Shown one piece after another: positions 4,833 through 26,803 of a stretch of 64,000 nucleotides of DNA (positions are counted from its first letter, which is position 1; the number at the start of each line of letters is the position of its first letter). Source of the DNA: Clostridia bacterium (GTDB lineage Bacteria > Bacillota > Clostridia > Oscillospirales > UBA644); NCBI GenBank assembly GCA_017623475.1, contig JAGAPC010000003.1, positions 1 through 64,000 of the forward strand, written 5' to 3'. Below the pieces are notes generated by a model that was given only the letters and a program-made list of their open reading frames with translations, did not search any database and was not told the DNA's origin. The position numbers and the translations under genes are program-made.

Positions 4833-4861
4833 TTGACAAATCAATAAAACTGTGCTATAAT
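4833..4861 (+). promoter_or_regulatory. SigA-type promoter of the leader-exporter operon
   Basis: TTGACA (4833-4838), a 17-base spacer and TATAAT (4856-4861). The first ATG with a ribosome site downstream is the leader peptide at 4897, not the exporter at 5116. The untranslated leader is therefore more than 240 bases long. Confidence 0.85.
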
Positions 4862-4896
4862 TTACTCATAAATTTTTATGAAAGGAGGAGAATACG

Positions 4897-4968
4897 ATGA
4901 CAAACCGCATTTACAATCACAATTTTATCAACGCAAACGTACTCCCCTCCGAGGATCATAAAGCATAA
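4897..4968 (+). CDS. 23-residue leader peptide upstream of the ABC exporter
   Basis: A near-perfect AAGGAGGAG ribosome site lies 7 bases before this ATG, stronger than that of the exporter gene itself. The peptide MTNRIYNHNFINANVLPSED ends in HKA and is rich in Asn (5 of 23). Bases 4896-4907, which span the start codon, are exactly complementary over 12 bases to 4982-4993 just past the stop. Bases 4938-4944 inside the reading frame can pair with 5005-5011 in the loop and 3' arm of the terminator that follows. A ribosome on this frame would change which helices form. The layout resembles bmrB-bmrCD of Bacillus subtilis, where a leader peptide controls a heterodimeric drug exporter by transcription attenuation. 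The regulatory role is inferred. Confidence 0.7.
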   Translation: MTNRIYNHNFINANVLPSEDHKA

Positions 4969-4981
4969 TCAGACCGTCTGA

Positions 4982-5027
4982 CGGTTTGTCATCCCGGTGC
5001 GTACGAGTACGCCCCGGGTATTTTTTT
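4982..5027 (+). terminator. Attenuator terminator behind the leader peptide
   Basis: An 11-bp GC-rich stem with one mismatch (4993-5003 with 5008-5018) is followed by TATTTTTTT. The preceding 4982-4993 pairs with the leader start codon region. As it lies between the promoter and the exporter genes, it should stop most transcripts unless it is disrupted. Confidence 0.8.
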
Positions 5028-5036
5028 GTGTTCAAG

Positions 5037-5071
5037 GCACCCGTGGGCGGCTCACGGGTGCTTTATCGTTT
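5037..5071 (+). terminator. Second hairpin in the exporter leader
   Basis: A perfect 9-bp stem (5037-5045 with 5053-5061) has a 7-base loop and a weaker T-rich tail (TTTATCGTTT). Either it is a back-up terminator or it protects the mRNA 5' end. From here to 5115 I see no further structure. Confidence 0.55.
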
Positions 5072-5115
5072 CTCTCGGAGAACACCCTTGGAACGAAATC
5101 TGAAAGAAAAACGAA

Positions 5116-6849
5116 ATGAAAAACATACTTGAATTATTAAAGCCTTATCGAAAAAAACTGATCGGCGTTGCCGTGATTGACGGGATTGGCATGATCTGTG
5201 CCCTTTTGATGCCCTTCGTGATGAGCGAAATCGTCGAAAAGGGAATTTCGGAGCAAAACCTTGCGCTCGTGTGGCAATACGCGGGGATTATGGTGCTTTT
5301 GGCGGTGGTATCGGTTACGGCAAACGTAATCTCCGCCAAGCTGAACACCGGGATTTCAGCCGGTTTTTCGGCGGATCTTTGCAGTAAAACCTTCGAGAAG
5401 ATCAATTCCCTTTCTTATTCCGCTTATACGAAAATCGGACCTTCCGGATTGTTGACGCGAGCCACCGATGATATCTGGAACGTGGAGGGGACGATCACCG
5501 GCCTGCCTTACACGCTGTTCACCGTTCCCGTCATGTTTATCGGCTCCGCCGTCCTTGCGTTTTTGGCCGATCCCGTATTGTCTGCGGTATTTATGCTGTC
5601 GATTCCGCCGATTCTTATTATGGTTCTGATTTTGATGCGGCCGTTGTACGATATGTGGGATCGGTCGGATCGGTACGTGGATCTGCAGAATAAAATCGTA
5701 AGAGAGCGCCTGTCGGGGCTTCGCGTCGTGCGGGCGTTCAACAACGAAAAGCGGGAGCACGGAAGAGCCAAGTTTGCCACGGAGGAAATGGCAAAGTACA
5801 TGATCCGCGCCAATACCCGGGGCGGAATGGTCGATCCCTTTGCGATGCTTTTGCTGAATCTTGCCACGGTGGCGGTGGTCTGCTTCGGCGGAATTCGGGC
5901 GCAGCTCGGCTCCGGGATTACCACCGGCGGCGTAATCGCCGTACTGCAGTATATCGGGATGATATCCAACGCACTGATCAGCATTTCCTGGACCCTTGCG
6001 TGGCTTCCCAAGGTAAGGGTCTCCCTGCGCCGCTTGAATGAAATTCATTCCGCCCCCGACGAGGAAACGATTCCGCAGGGCGCGGGGAAAACCGCGGACG
6101 GATTTGACGTCGAAATTAAAAACCTCTCCTTTGCCTATCCCAACGCCACCAAAAATGTCATCGAAAACGTGTCGCTTACCCTTCGGGAGGGGGAGCATAT
6201 CGCCCTGATCGGCGGCACGGGAAGCGGAAAAAGCACGCTGATAAAATTGCTCGCAGGTCTTTTTGATCCCGGCGAGGGAGAAATTCGGATCGGCGGGGTG
6301 TCTTACGGAGATATGAGAAAATCCGACGTCCGCGCCCACTTCTCGGTCGCCCTCCAAAAGGCGCAGATCTTTGAAGGCACGGTGCGGGATAATATCAAAA
6401 TGGGCAATCCCGAAGCCTCCGACGAGGAAATATATCGGGCGCTGAAATTATCGAAAATGGCAGAGTTCGTCGATTCCCACTCCGAGGGATTGGACTACCT
6501 TTTGGTCGGAAGCGGTCAAAACGTAAGCGGCGGTCAGCGTCAGCGGCTCAACATGGCAAGAACGGTCATTAAAAACGCCGACGTCTATATTTTCGACGAC
6601 AGCTTCAGCGCTTTGGACTTTCTTACCGAAAGCGAGATCAAGGAAAATTACGCTGCTCTCCTGCAGGGAAAAAGCAGAATCGTCGCAACCCAGCGGATCA
6701 GCACGGCGATGAGCGCCGACCGCATCTACGTTCTGGATCAAGGGCGAATCATCGGCATCGGGACCCACGACGAGCTTCTTTCATCCTGCCCCATCTATCG
6801 GGAAATTGCCGAATCCCAGCTTGGCAAGGGAAAGGAGAGCTCGAAATGA
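5116..6849 (+). CDS. ABC exporter half-transporter, degenerate-site subunit
   Basis: This 577-residue subunit has six transmembrane helices and then an ATPase domain. Walker A is GGTGSGKST at 366-374 and the signature is SGGQ at 471-474. Two catalytic positions are changed. The Walker B Glu is Asp (YIFDDSFSALD, 494-495), and the switch His is Gln (VATQRIST, Gln526). These are the changes expected in the non-hydrolysing half of heterodimeric exporters such as BmrC or TM287. The next gene encodes the canonical partner and overlaps by 4 bases. The ribosome site is weak (GAAAGA), consistent with control by the leader upstream. Likely role: efflux of drugs or lipophilic compounds. Confidence 0.93.
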   Translation: MKNILELLKPYRKKLIGVAVIDGIGMICALLMPFVMSEIVEKGISEQNLALVWQYAGIMVLLAVVSVTANVISAKLNTGISAGFSADLCSKTFEKINSLSYSAYTKIGPSGLLTRATDDIWNVEGTITGLPYTLFTVPVMFIGSAVLAFLADPVLSAVFMLSIPPILIMVLILMRPLYDMWDRSDRYVDLQNKIVRERLSGLRVVRAFNNEKREHGRAKFATEEMAKYMIRANTRGGMVDPFAMLLLNLATVAVVCFGGIRAQLGSGITTGGVIAVLQYIGMISNALISISWTLAWLPKVRVSLRRLNEIHSAPDEETIPQGAGKTADGFDVEIKNLSFAYPNATKNVIENVSLTLREGEHIALIGGTGSGKSTLIKLLAGLFDPGEGEIRIGGVSYGDMRKSDVRAHFSVALQKAQIFEGTVRDNIKMGNPEASDEEIYRALKLSKMAEFVDSHSEGLDYLLVGSGQNVSGGQRQRLNMARTVIKNADVYIFDDSFSALDFLTESEIKENYAALLQGKSRIVATQRISTAMSADRIYVLDQGRIIGIGTHDELLSSCPIYREIAESQLGKGKESSK

Positions 6850-8627
6850 AAAAGAATACGAAACGAAACGGATTCAGCTCGATCAAGGTAATCCTTCGCA
6901 TCCTGAAGGATTCCTTGGGGATCGGTCATTGGCTTCTCCTTGCCACGGTCTTGAGCATCGGTTCTGCTTACCTTGCCATGACGGCACCGGAAATTCTCGG
7001 AAACATGACCAATCAGATTTACGATTTTCTCGACGCAGGGATCGTCATGGATTCCCCTTTGTTCTTTCGTCGCATGATAATTCTCGTGGCGATCTATCTC
7101 ATATCCGCCCTTTTGGGCGCGCTGACCAAGGGAGTTATGAATTACTCCGTCAGCAGCTTTTTTACCTGTAAATTGCGGGTGAAGATGAGCGAAAAAATAG
7201 CGAAGATTCCGATCAAAGTCGTTGATAGCACGCCAAACGGAGAATTCATATCCCGCATGACCAACGACGTTTCCATGATGGGCGGCTCGATCCACGATAT
7301 CTTCGGCGTCGTGATTAACGGCGTCATTCAGCTGGGAATGATCTCGATGATTATCTTTCGGGAAGAGCCCGTCATGGCGTTGGCGGTCATCCTGTTCGTC
7401 CCCCTTTCTCTGATCCTTTCCGCCCTGCTTGCGTCGAAAAGCGAAAAGCACTTTAACGAGTTTCGGGTCCAATCGGGAAAGCTTTACAGCATTTGCGAAG
7501 AAAATTTAGCCTGCTTTGACGCGGTCAAAATTTTCTCCATCGAAAAATCACAGAACGAAAAATATAAAAAGGTGACGAAAAAGTACGCCGAATATTCCTC
7601 CAAGGGGTACTTCGTTTCGGGACTCGTCAGCCCCATCGTCGGACTGATCAACAACCTTTCTTACGTTGCAATTTGCGTGATCGGATCCTATCTCGTGATC
7701 CACGGACGGGTCAACGTCGGCTCCCTCGTCGCCTTTATCATGTACACCAAGCTATTCTCCGGACCCTTGGAATCCATCGCCAACGGAATGTCCATGATCC
7801 AATCTACGATCGCCTCCGCAAGAAGAGTGTACGAATACCTTGACGGAGAGGAGATGGAGGAGCACGAGCCCGAAGGCGTCGGAACCGTTCGCGGCGAGGT
7901 GGAATTGATCGACGTTTGTTTTTCCTATACCGACGATAAGCCCTTGATTGAGCACCTGAACCTACGCGTCAAGCCGGGGGAGAAGGTGGCGATCGTCGGA
8001 CCTACGGGCGGCGGGAAAACGACCATCGTAAACCTTTTGATGCGTTTTTACGATCCGAAATCGGGAAAGGTTTTGGTGGACGGCAGGGATATTACCTCCA
8101 TGAGCCGTACCGACGTGCGGGAAATGTTCGGGATGGTTCTGCAGGACACCATGCTCTTTTCGGGAAGCGTATATGACAATATCGCCTACGGAAAAGAGGG
8201 CGCAACGCGGGACGAGGTAATGCAAGCCGCAAAAAAAGCGCATATCGACCGATTTATCGACGCGTTGCCCGACGGATACGATACCGAGATCAACGAGGAC
8301 AGCACCAATATCAGCGCAGGACAAAAGCAGCTTTTGACGATTGCCCGCGCCTATCTGTCGGATCGACCGATCCTGATCCTTGACGAAGCCACCAGCAACG
8401 TGGACACCCGCACCGAGCTTTTGATCCAGCAGACGATGGACGATCTGATGAAGGACCGTACCGCCTTCGTTATTGCCCATCGGCTCTCCACCGTCGAAAA
8501 CGCCGACGTTATTCTGGTGGTGGATAACGGTCACGTCGTCGAGCAGGGAACCCACGCCGATCTGTTAGCGCGAAAGGGATTGTACTCCAAAATTTATAAC
8601 AGCCAATACCCAAAAACGAAGATGTAA
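6846..8627 (+). CDS. ABC exporter half-transporter, catalytic subunit
   Basis: This is the 593-residue partner of the preceding subunit. The first ~330 residues form the membrane domain. The ATPase domain is canonical: Walker A GPTGGGKTT, signature SAGQ, Walker B LILDEATSNVD with the catalytic Glu, and switch His in VIAHRLST. In heterodimeric exporters the canonical site is built from this subunit's Walker motifs and the SGGQ of the degenerate subunit. The ATGA overlap implies translational coupling and equal amounts of both. A strong terminator follows directly, so the operon is leader peptide plus two subunits. Confidence 0.94.
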   Translation: MKKNTKRNGFSSIKVILRILKDSLGIGHWLLLATVLSIGSAYLAMTAPEILGNMTNQIYDFLDAGIVMDSPLFFRRMIILVAIYLISALLGALTKGVMNYSVSSFFTCKLRVKMSEKIAKIPIKVVDSTPNGEFISRMTNDVSMMGGSIHDIFGVVINGVIQLGMISMIIFREEPVMALAVILFVPLSLILSALLASKSEKHFNEFRVQSGKLYSICEENLACFDAVKIFSIEKSQNEKYKKVTKKYAEYSSKGYFVSGLVSPIVGLINNLSYVAICVIGSYLVIHGRVNVGSLVAFIMYTKLFSGPLESIANGMSMIQSTIASARRVYEYLDGEEMEEHEPEGVGTVRGEVELIDVCFSYTDDKPLIEHLNLRVKPGEKVAIVGPTGGGKTTIVNLLMRFYDPKSGKVLVDGRDITSMSRTDVREMFGMVLQDTMLFSGSVYDNIAYGKEGATRDEVMQAAKKAHIDRFIDALPDGYDTEINEDSTNISAGQKQLLTIARAYLSDRPILILDEATSNVDTRTELLIQQTMDDLMKDRTAFVIAHRLSTVENADVILVVDNGHVVEQGTHADLLARKGLYSKIYNSQYPKTKM

Positions 8628-23142: not shown

Positions 23143-24924
23143 ATGGTATTCGGAAAACATATCAACCGCTATTATCTGCGATATTCCTGGCTTTTTTTGC
23201 TGGGGCTGGCGGCGTTGATTATGGTCGATTATTTTCAACTGAAGATTCCGGAATTATATAAAACCGTCGTCAACGGCATGAATCACGGCTTTATCACGTC
23301 CGAGGGACAGACCCTTGCCTTTGATCTGGATTTTTTGTTGGATAAAGTCTGCCTTCCCTTGATCTTTATTATCCTTGCCATGATCGTCGGACGCTTTTTG
23401 TGGCGGGTTTGCTTTTTCGGCGCCGCCGTTTGGATGGAGACCGATTTGCGGAATCGGATGTTCGATCATTGTAAGGATCTTTCCCGTCAGTATTACCAGG
23501 TCAACAAGGTCGGGAATCTGATGTCCTTGTTTACCAACGATCTGGATACGGTGCACGAGTGCTTCGGCTGGGGCGTGATGATGTTCTTCGACGCGCTGTT
23601 TTTAGGGGCTCTTGCCATCGTAAAAATGTGGAACATGAGCTTCCGTCTGACCCTTCTTTCCATGATCCCCATGGCGTTCCTTTTGGTGATTGCCACCATC
23701 GTCGGGAGATCCATGATGAAAAAGTGGGACGTTCGCCAGGAAGCCTTTTCCGATCTGTCGGATTTTTCCCAGGAGAGCTTTTCGGGCATCGCCGTTATCA
23801 AGGCGTTCGTCAAGGAATTGAAGGAATTGCTCGCCTTCCGTCAACTGAACAAGCAAAACGAAAAGGCAAACGTGGAATATACCAAATCCTCCACCCTTCT
23901 TCGCATTTTCGTTACCCTGTTCGTGGAGTCGGTCATTTGCGTGATTCTCGGTTACGGCGGATATTTGGTCCATCAAGGGGTTTTTAACGCCGGACAGCTG
24001 ATTGAATTTATCGGCTACTTCAACGCCGTCGTTTGGCCCGTGATGGCAGTCTCCGAGTTGGTGGAAATGTCCTCCCGGGGGAAGGCTTCCTTGAAGCGCA
24101 TCTCGGAGCTTTTGGATGCCAAGCAGGACGTGATCGATCGGGATGACGTTACCGATCTTGGCTCGGTTTCCGGTAAAATTGAATTCCGCAACCTGACCTT
24201 CCGCTTTCCGGAGGGGGAATACGACGCGCTGAAAAACGTGTCCTTCACCGTCAACGCAGGGGAAAACGTGGGCTTGGTAGGGAAGACCGGCGCGGGGAAA
24301 ACCACCGTGGTCGATCTGATCCTGCGGGGGTACAACGTCCCCGACGGCACGGTGTTTATCGACGGACGGGACGTAAATACCGTTCCCATCGCCCAGGTTC
24401 GCGCCGCTTCTGCTTACGTTCCCCAGGACAATTTCCTGTTCAGCGATACGATTTATAACAACATCGCCTTCGGCGTGGATTCTGCCGATGAACAAACGGT
24501 GGAGACCGTCGCAAAATTGGCGGACGTCCACGGCAATATTTCCGAGTTTAAGGAAGGCTACCAAACGGTTTTGGGCGAACGGGGCGTTACCGTCTCCGGC
24601 GGACAGAAGCAGCGGATCTCCATCGCACGGGCGTTGCTGAAAAACGCGCCCATTCTGATTTTGGACGATTCGGTTTCCGCCGTCGATACCAAAACCGAAA
24701 AGGTAATTCTGGAAAATCTCCGCCATACCCGCGCCGGAAAGACCACCATTCTCATCGCCCACCGCATCTCTACCATCGAAAAGATGGATAAGATTATTTT
24801 CATCGACGACGGTGAGATCCTTGCCGTCGGCACTCACGAGGAGCTGTACGGACGGTGCGCCGATTACCGCCGCATGGTCGATCTGCAAAAGCTGGAAGAG
24901 GAAGGAGAACGGAATCATGCGTGA
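23143..24924 (+). CDS. ABC exporter half-transporter, degenerate-site subunit (second pair)
   Basis: This 593-residue subunit has six transmembrane helices and then an ATPase with Walker A GKTGAGKTT, signature VSGGQKQR and Walker B LILDDSVSAVD. Asp replaces the catalytic Glu in Walker B, but the switch His (LIAHRIST) is kept. It is therefore less degenerate than the subunit at 5116. GGGGAG precedes the ATG. The partner gene starts 8 bases before this one ends. A heterodimeric multidrug or peptide exporter is likely, with the substrate unknown. Confidence 0.93.
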   Translation: MVFGKHINRYYLRYSWLFLLGLAALIMVDYFQLKIPELYKTVVNGMNHGFITSEGQTLAFDLDFLLDKVCLPLIFIILAMIVGRFLWRVCFFGAAVWMETDLRNRMFDHCKDLSRQYYQVNKVGNLMSLFTNDLDTVHECFGWGVMMFFDALFLGALAIVKMWNMSFRLTLLSMIPMAFLLVIATIVGRSMMKKWDVRQEAFSDLSDFSQESFSGIAVIKAFVKELKELLAFRQLNKQNEKANVEYTKSSTLLRIFVTLFVESVICVILGYGGYLVHQGVFNAGQLIEFIGYFNAVVWPVMAVSELVEMSSRGKASLKRISELLDAKQDVIDRDDVTDLGSVSGKIEFRNLTFRFPEGEYDALKNVSFTVNAGENVGLVGKTGAGKTTVVDLILRGYNVPDGTVFIDGRDVNTVPIAQVRAASAYVPQDNFLFSDTIYNNIAFGVDSADEQTVETVAKLADVHGNISEFKEGYQTVLGERGVTVSGGQKQRISIARALLKNAPILILDDSVSAVDTKTEKVILENLRHTRAGKTTILIAHRISTIEKMDKIIFIDDGEILAVGTHEELYGRCADYRRMVDLQKLEEEGERNHA

Positions 24925-26803
24925 ATATTACCCCCTTCTCCTGGTCGGTGCCATCGTCGGCGTTCTTTCGGCGATTTTTATCGTTGCCTTTGCAACGCTG
25001 AAAAACAAAAAGGAAGCCATCGGCTTTGATCGGAATATGAAGGATTCCGAAATCGTCCGTCGGCTTCTGCAGTACGCAAAGCCCCATTGGAAAAGCTTTT
25101 TGTTCGTAATCGTCGTTATGATCTTTTCCATCGCCTACGATATCGTCGCCCCCTTGATCGTCGGTTACATCGAAGAGATCGTCAAGTCGGATTTTGAGTT
25201 AACGCTTCTCTTTTCCGCCGTCGCCCTTTACGGTGGCGTGCTTCTCATTTCCGTTATTTGTACTTACGTTCAGTCGATCACTCTGCAAAAAACAGGGCAG
25301 AAGATCCTGTCCTCCATTCGGGAGGATCTGTTTACCCATATCGAATCCCTTTCCCATAATCAGCTGAATCAGACCCCCGTGGGCAAGCTGGTTACCCGTG
25401 TAACCAACGATACCAACGCCATTTCCATGATGTTTACCAACATCATCGTCAACCTGCTGAAGAACTTTTTCATCATCTTCGGGGTGCTGATCGCCATGCT
25501 GACCGTCAATTATGAATTGACGCTGATGGTTTTGTGCTTCGTTCCCTTTATTATTCTGTTTACGGTGATCTTCCGCAAGTTTTCCCGAAAGGCGTATCGG
25601 AAGGTAAAGGACGGCACCACCGATATCAACACCTATCTTTCCGAAAATCTTTCCGGAATCAAGATCACCCAGATCTTCAATCGGGAGGAACGGAAAAAGA
25701 AGGATTTCGAGGAAAAAAGCCGTTTTTTGGGCAGGGCAAAGCAGAATCAGATCTTCGTCTTCGGGATCTTCCGCCCCATGGTGTATCTGCTTTATATTTC
25801 TTCTGTTCTCTGCCTGTTTTATTTGGGCGGTAAGGGGTATATTGATAATACCACCTTCCTCGGACAGACCATTACCGCAGGGACGGTCGTTACGTTTTAT
25901 ATGTACATCTCCAAATTCTTCAATCCCATTCAGAATTTGGCGGAGCAGTTTAATTGGCTACAGTCTGCCTTTGCCTCGGCGGAAAAGATCTTTACCGTAT
26001 TTGACACCGAGCCCGAATTGGTTGACGAGCCCGACGCCGTGGAATTGGACGAGATCAAAGGGGAGATCGAATTTAAAAACGTCTGGTTCTCCTATGTCCC
26101 GGGCGAATGGGTCTTAAAGGACGTTTCCTTCAAGGTTGAGCCGAAGCAGACCGTTGCCTTCGTCGGCTCTACCGGATCGGGAAAATCCACGATTCTGTCC
26201 TTGATCTGCCGAAATTACGATATTCAAAAAGGGCAGATCCTCATTGACGGAATCGATATCAAAAAAATTAAAATTTCTTCCCTGCGGCGTCATTTCGGTC
26301 AGATGCTCCAGGACGTATTTCTGTTTTCCGGAACGATCCGCAGTAACATCGTCCTTCGGGAGGATTCCTATACCGATGAGGAGGTCATGGAAGCCTGCCG
26401 CTACGTCAACGCCGATTCCTTTATCAATAAGTTGGACGGCGGCTTGGACGAAGCGGTTCGGGAGCGCGGAAACAACTTTTCTGCCGGTCAGCGTCAGCTG
26501 TTGTCCTTCGCCCGTACCATTATCCATAAGCCCTCCGTTATGATCCTTGACGAGGCGACGGCGAATATCGATACGGAAACGGAGCTTCTGATCCAGAATT
26601 CCCTCGAAAAAATGATGACTATCGGCACGATGCTGATCGTGGCACACCGTCTTTCCACCATTCAGAAGGCGGACAATATCATTCTTCTTTCCAACGGAGA
26701 GATCGTCGAGCAGGGAACGCACCAGGAGCTTTTGCACCAAAAGGGACGCTACTATCAGCTATATACCCTTCAGTCTCATAAGGAAGAATTGCAAAAATCT
26801 TAA
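24917..26803 (+). CDS. ABC exporter half-transporter, catalytic subunit (second pair)
   Basis: This 628-residue protein has canonical ATPase motifs: GSTGSGKST, FSAGQRQ, MILDEATANID and VAHRLST. An extra hydrophobic segment (residues ~5-27) precedes the usual six helices, followed by a charged linker. This extension is common in the larger subunit of such pairs. The ATG at 24917 follows GAAGGAGA. The frame could extend to 24812 but would lie wholly within the first subunit. It forms the exporter with the preceding gene. Confidence 0.94.
   Translation: MREYYPLLLVGAIVGVLSAIFIVAFATLKNKKEAIGFDRNMKDSEIVRRLLQYAKPHWKSFLFVIVVMIFSIAYDIVAPLIVGYIEEIVKSDFELTLLFSAVALYGGVLLISVICTYVQSITLQKTGQKILSSIREDLFTHIESLSHNQLNQTPVGKLVTRVTNDTNAISMMFTNIIVNLLKNFFIIFGVLIAMLTVNYELTLMVLCFVPFIILFTVIFRKFSRKAYRKVKDGTTDINTYLSENLSGIKITQIFNREERKKKDFEEKSRFLGRAKQNQIFVFGIFRPMVYLLYISSVLCLFYLGGKGYIDNTTFLGQTITAGTVVTFYMYISKFFNPIQNLAEQFNWLQSAFASAEKIFTVFDTEPELVDEPDAVELDEIKGEIEFKNVWFSYVPGEWVLKDVSFKVEPKQTVAFVGSTGSGKSTILSLICRNYDIQKGQILIDGIDIKKIKISSLRRHFGQMLQDVFLFSGTIRSNIVLREDSYTDEEVMEACRYVNADSFINKLDGGLDEAVRERGNNFSAGQRQLLSFARTIIHKPSVMILDEATANIDTETELLIQNSLEKMMTIGTMLIVAHRLSTIQKADNIILLSNGEIVEQGTHQELLHQKGRYYQLYTLQSHKEELQKS

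Follow-up and report, generated by a model that had tools for sequence, protein, structure and literature searches.

A putative ribosome-mediated attenuator with competing helices upstream of a heterodimeric ABC exporter in gut Clostridia

The leader of vmlR in Bacillus subtilis responds to drugs that stall initiating ribosomes, and extra pairing within the read-through RNA has been proposed to make the start region of its target accessible (PMC9226507). Its plan comprises an anti-antiterminator that holds an upstream open reading frame (uORF), an antiterminator capped by a small hairpin, an intrinsic terminator and a read-through pairing that affects translation of the gene behind it (PMC9226507). 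The clostridial cplR leader of Clostridioides difficile has a uORF, a 5' hairpin and a terminator, and combines transcriptional with translational attenuation (PMC10201436). In B. subtilis, translation of the bmrB leader is needed for the antibiotic induction of bmrCD, a heterodimeric multidrug ABC exporter (PMC4191407), and the tlrB (yxjB) leader joins a leader peptide to an intrinsic terminator and a second structure that controls translation (PMC6851288). Regulation of multidrug-type exporters in uncultured gut Clostridia is little studied. Here we describe a leader from one of these organisms that resembles each of the four systems in parts of its plan.

The stretch of DNA analysed, called the window throughout, comprises positions 1-64,000 of contig JAGAPC010000003.1 (GCA_017623475.1) from a gut Clostridia bacterium, and the features of the locus are collected in Table 1. 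An earlier reading of the same letters, the original prediction, had placed here a promoter, a 23-codon frame with a stronger Shine-Dalgarno (SD) sequence than that of the exporter, two hairpins and the exporter genes, all of which were confirmed directly from the sequence. The leader SD proper, GAAAGGAGGAG (4880-4890), is near-perfect, the uORF ends with the stop codon at 4966-4968, and the two exporter genes overlap by 4 bases. The uORF, with its own ribosome site, stands 5' of an intrinsic terminator within the 5' UTR, which is the arrangement of the attenuator class. Against dinucleotide-shuffled controls, the predicted fold of the leader RNA is more stable by 5.0 s.d. When the whole window was scanned for strong-SD short ORFs that a terminator follows, 5 candidates emerged, and significant pairing between SD and codons was found only in this leader. 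With its membrane and ATPase domains, the proposed target is an ABC exporter and not an ABC-F protein. It has the traits of a heterodimer, with one degenerate and one canonical Walker B motif and with chains of the heterodimeric TM287/288 among the structure matches; TM287-type chains are among the best matches of subunit 1. Note that the window holds a second ABC-exporter gene pair (23143-26803), before which the leader scan found no leader of this kind.

Table 1. Features of the leader and of the exporter genes in the window
Feature	Position	Strand	Remarks
Sigma-70 promoter, TTGACA (4833-4838), 17-bp spacer, TATAAT (4856-4861)	4833..4861	+	Perfect consensus, read directly
Element a, strong leader SD and spacer (GAAAGGAGGAGAATACG)	4880..4896	+	Proposed anti-antiterminator partner of b
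Leader uORF, 23 codons, MTNRIYNHNFINANVLPSEDHKA followed by stop	4897..4968	+	ORF at equivalent position in 14/14 orthologs
Element b, GTACTC-NCC-TCCGAGGAT, leader codons 15-20, proposed switch strand	4939..4956	+	RNA kept in frame-shifted L063
Hairpin P2, directly 3' of leader stop codon	4970..4988	+	Putative antiterminator apex, possible pause hairpin
T1 5' arm and flank, putative antiterminator partner of b	4991..5005	+	Nascent-RNA MFE with leader start masked; cognate preference
T1 intrinsic terminator, hairpin 4993-5018 and U-tract	4993..5027	+	Hairpin with U-tract in 21/21 leaders
T2, second GC-rich hairpin, then interrupted U-rich stretch	about 5034..5064	+	Fold
Element E, predicted to pair with b and the codons after b	5059..5080	+	Cognate-preference tests
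ABC exporter subunit 1 (PF00664 and PF00005)	5116..6849	+	Walker B ending DD, degenerate-site subunit; start without SD
ABC exporter subunit 2 (PF00664 and PF00005)	6846..8627	+	Canonical Walker B ILILDE

Orthologs of the exporter with upstream sequence (type 1, L061-L074, 53-87% identity), nearly all of them from MAGs of herbivore-gut Clostridia, carry the leader in 14 of 14 cases. The exporter was not found in the 4 other genomes of the genus, where the best relatives are 32% identical, and among 295 genomes of the order the cut-off for the exporter was passed by just 3, the other two at 41-45% identity and with no leader. This patchy distribution suggests that the exporter has spread by horizontal exchange. 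Neither the type-1 relatives at 40-45% identity (L083, L084, L088) nor exporters about 32% identical from the same family of genomes have a leader of this type upstream. PLSDB gave no match to the leader, so no plasmid carriage was seen, and a pattern scan of viral contigs returned 2 matches inside unrelated sequence, which we judged to be chance. At the end of another contig (G299:C22), the genome that holds L066 also carries L106, a leader that is identical, as far as the two overlap, to the L065 leader of a different genome; this may be a second copy, a recent transfer or contamination of the bin.

A covariance model of the leader (R1), which itself includes the pairs between elements a and b, found L096, L097/L115 and L104 upstream of other ABC exporters. 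Most of its weak matches (E 1e-5 to 1e-2) resembled ordinary genes or terminators, and the architecture was seen only in L096, L097 and L104. Searching with the L097 exporter brought in L120, L132, L136 and L137, and the 39-45% relatives of the type-2 exporter had no such leader upstream. The arrangement thus recurs in about twenty related loci, upstream of three kinds of exporter, with letters that have changed yet still pair. Our comparison table holds 21 leaders, four of which (L120, L132, L136 and L137) were partly picked for a:b pairing. In all 21 the promoter matches the consensus at 10-12 of 12 positions, with a spacer of 17. The AAGGAGG of element a is invariant in alignment A2, and a hairpin is present at the position of P2 in 13 of the 14 type-1 leaders despite variable sequence (shuffle p < 0.05 in 10). 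T2 was found in most leaders and is missing from L069, L071 and L074. With the exception of L068, the type-1 exporters (L061-L074) have no strong SD of their own, and their starts sit in A-rich sequence.

The original prediction of an independent system is in line with the searches: none of the 4227 Rfam covariance models matched the leader, even at E = 1, and no description of it was found in the open-licence literature searched. The strong conserved structure would also be expected of a riboswitch-like, cis-acting RNA that binds a ligand and carries the small ORF incidentally. We regard this as extremely improbable, given the lack of an Rfam match, a variable, G-poor loop with no conserved ligand-binding core, and the strong SD and open frame that are always present.

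Element b has three predicted partners. It can pair with the leader's own SD (a:b; 4884-4888:4946-4950, 4890-4891:4943-4944 and 4893-4896:4938-4941), with the 5' arm of T1, enclosing P2 (4991-4994:4953-4956, 4995-4997:4949-4951 and 5001-5005:4938-4942), and, together with the codons after it, with element E (b+:E; 5074-5080:4947-4953 and 5059-5065:4959-4965). These predicted helices are mutually exclusive. The pairing with the T1 5' arm provides a conserved putative antiterminator that overlaps and excludes T1, and a:b, made of the SD and the late codons, a putative anti-antiterminator that includes the uORF region. All three conserved partners of b were absent from the original prediction, which had named two other helices. 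The first, a 12-bp helix between 4896-4907 and 4982-4993, is perfect in the window but not conserved (-20.7 kcal/mol, versus -0.1 to -8.6 in the 20 other leaders), so that the proposed check in relatives held for the leader ORF, kept in 14 of 14 orthologs, and not for this helix; in the window only, it may conceal the start codon as a further, local layer. The second, of 7 bp (4938-4944:5005-5011), is present as described but is a minor alternative to the better antiterminator formed by b and the T1 5' arm, and leader pairing to the loop and 3' arm of T1, tested as the switch, showed no cognate preference across loci (p = 0.32).

To evaluate the three helices, we compared the RNA duplex energy of cognate pairs with that of pairs swapped between leaders, using as main set 7 divergent leaders, none of them chosen by the a:b filter. 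In this set cognate preference was found for a:b (p = 0.0042), for b with the T1 5' arm (p = 0.0026; p = 0.003-0.004 across clusters) and for b+:E (p = 0.0002). Within the 14 type-1 leaders, b+:E again preferred its cognate partner (p < 5e-5, 50,000 permutations), and Fisher's method over shuffles gave 6e-11 for this helix, the loci not being independent. Within type 1 alone the pairing of b with the T1 5' arm was not significant (p = 0.20; four representatives, p = 0.17), the column counts for a:b in the type-1 alignment gave no double change, and the MAFFT alignment, examined column by column for covariation, was uninformative. Support for a:b rests on the divergent leaders, some of them found with a model holding those pairs, and its raw energy is unexceptional: 21% of 67 strong-SD ORFs have equally strong pairing between SD and codons. 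A compensatory change is seen between L073 (CGAAAA:UUUUCG) and L074 (UGAAAA:UUUUCA). In L104, a:b extends to 12 bp and b+:E to 7+9 bp around a bulge, and in L071 b+:E runs over 17 consecutive bp. The long-range helix between the leader end and E (5059-5080 in the window; also L104, L071, L068 and L073) is the best supported of the set. In its general form, a translated leader with mutually exclusive helices and attenuation logic before a heterodimeric ABC exporter, the original prediction is supported by this comparison.

When the leader start is masked, the antiterminator is the fold of the nascent RNA in the window, L061, L096 and L104, among others. Once T1 is complete, the lowest-energy fold is usually T1 itself, whether or not the leader start is masked, and therefore antitermination would have to be kinetic. 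Note that b+:E cannot affect termination, because E lies after T1 and T2. The position of this best-supported helix, together with the ability of E to pair with the exporter start region in the window, L069 and L071, is what would be expected if control were purely translational, with b and E tuning both translation of the exporter and stability of its mRNA, and T1 acting as a constitutive partial terminator. We consider this quite unlikely: across clusters b prefers the T1 5' arm of its own leader (p = 0.003), and no leader lacks T1. An additional role is a different matter: as vmlR would suggest by analogy, b+:E in the read-through RNA may control translation of the exporter, and the case for this is weak because E can pair with the exporter start in some of the loci only.

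We then asked whether the peptide or its RNA is under constraint. The uORF frame survives indels across the orthologs, L063 excepted, and therefore the leader is probably translated. The codons GTA CTC NCC TCC GAG of b do not vary at the third position among the 9 in-frame close members, and the comparison indicates that the constraint falls on the RNA of these late codons. In L063 (2736-2883) a one-base shift before b removes the VL-x-SED end, and the frame runs to a new stop; the RNA elements are intact despite the frameshift, which is either real or a MAG error. Conservation of the peptide ends, the MTN start and the C-terminal VL-x-SE in most type-1 leaders, could point to a bmrB-like system, in which the nascent peptide senses the drug and arrest at specific codons shifts the two helices of the original prediction; the heterodimeric exporter, as in bmrCD (PMC4191407), would also fit. 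This explanation is unlikely in our view: the middle of the peptide is variable, VLxSED is replaced by HASG in L071, L073 and L074, L063 has lost this end by frameshift yet keeps the RNA, the 12-bp helix exists in the window only, and no arrest motif of the RLR/RYR type was seen by eye in the window peptide.

The peptide had also been described as Asn-rich, and Asn does make up 11-26% of the residues in close orthologs, which would be compatible with an amino-acid attenuator, in which Asn (or other) codons stall the ribosome when charged tRNA is scarce. We give this very little credence: the downstream gene encodes an exporter and not an enzyme of asparagine metabolism, several other leaders have only 0-9% Asn, and the bias fits a loop poor in G (0-13% G across type-1 leaders versus 25% in the window). 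The Asn-richness is probably a by-product of this loop.

We consider it probable, from the sequences compared, that the leader is a ribosome-mediated attenuator in which an early-stalled ribosome covers the SD, frees b, disrupts T1 and turns the exporter on. With no ribosome on the SD, a:b would form and T1 would terminate transcription. Fast translation would lead to the same outcome, since the ribosome would cover b while T1 is being made. When a ribosome stalls early, on the start codon or one of the first codons, as we infer for 50S inhibitors such as lincosamides, pleuromutilins or phenicols, it would cover a and leave b free; b could then take the 5' arm of T1 before the 3' arm is made, and RNA polymerase would read into the exporter. 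In the read-through mRNA, pairing of the leader end with E may keep the SD-less start region of the exporter open. The sensor would thus be the ribosome on the SD, and probably not the peptide.

If this is true, the leader would add a family of drug-sensing RNA switches, located before multidrug-type exporters in uncultured gut Clostridia. Use of the SD as sensor strand would be a simple design of general scope, and searches for it would need neither a peptide nor a structure consensus. With so many natural variants, swap mutations could test the three competing helices directly. More tentatively, and with rather less confidence than doubt, we propose a recurrent design in which the SD serves as anti-antiterminator strand, giving a direct readout of its occupancy by an initiating or early-stalled ribosome, and the late codons then pair with E to license translation of an SD-less exporter, shared by at least three kinds of clostridial exporter through descent or convergence.

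Finally, we compared the leader with the described systems. vmlR differs in its 3-codon uORF, in an SD that lies unpaired before the hairpin and in its target, an ABC-F ribosome-protection protein (PMC9226507), whereas the window leader has 23 codons, its SD is one strand of the putative anti-antiterminator and its late codons are the other, and the target is an exporter. cplR likewise has a three-codon uORF (MRI) and an ABC-F target, and its terminator sequesters the cplR SD (PMC10201436). tlrB depends on tylosin-dependent stalling and a conserved RXR motif, its terminator is blocked directly by the stalled ribosome, and no antiterminator was identified (PMC6851288). bmrB, named originally as the precedent, gives way to the closer plan of vmlR and cplR: its terminator is part of the leader ORF and AbrB brings in growth-phase control (PMC4191407), unlike the window, where T1 (4993-5018) follows the leader stop codon. 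With the SD as a strand, the late codons of a 20-30-codon leader as its partner and mostly SD-less type-1 exporters, this leader is therefore not a member of the vmlR, cplR or bmrB systems; its closest precedents are vmlR and, in part, cplR for the plan, and bmrCD for the type of target.
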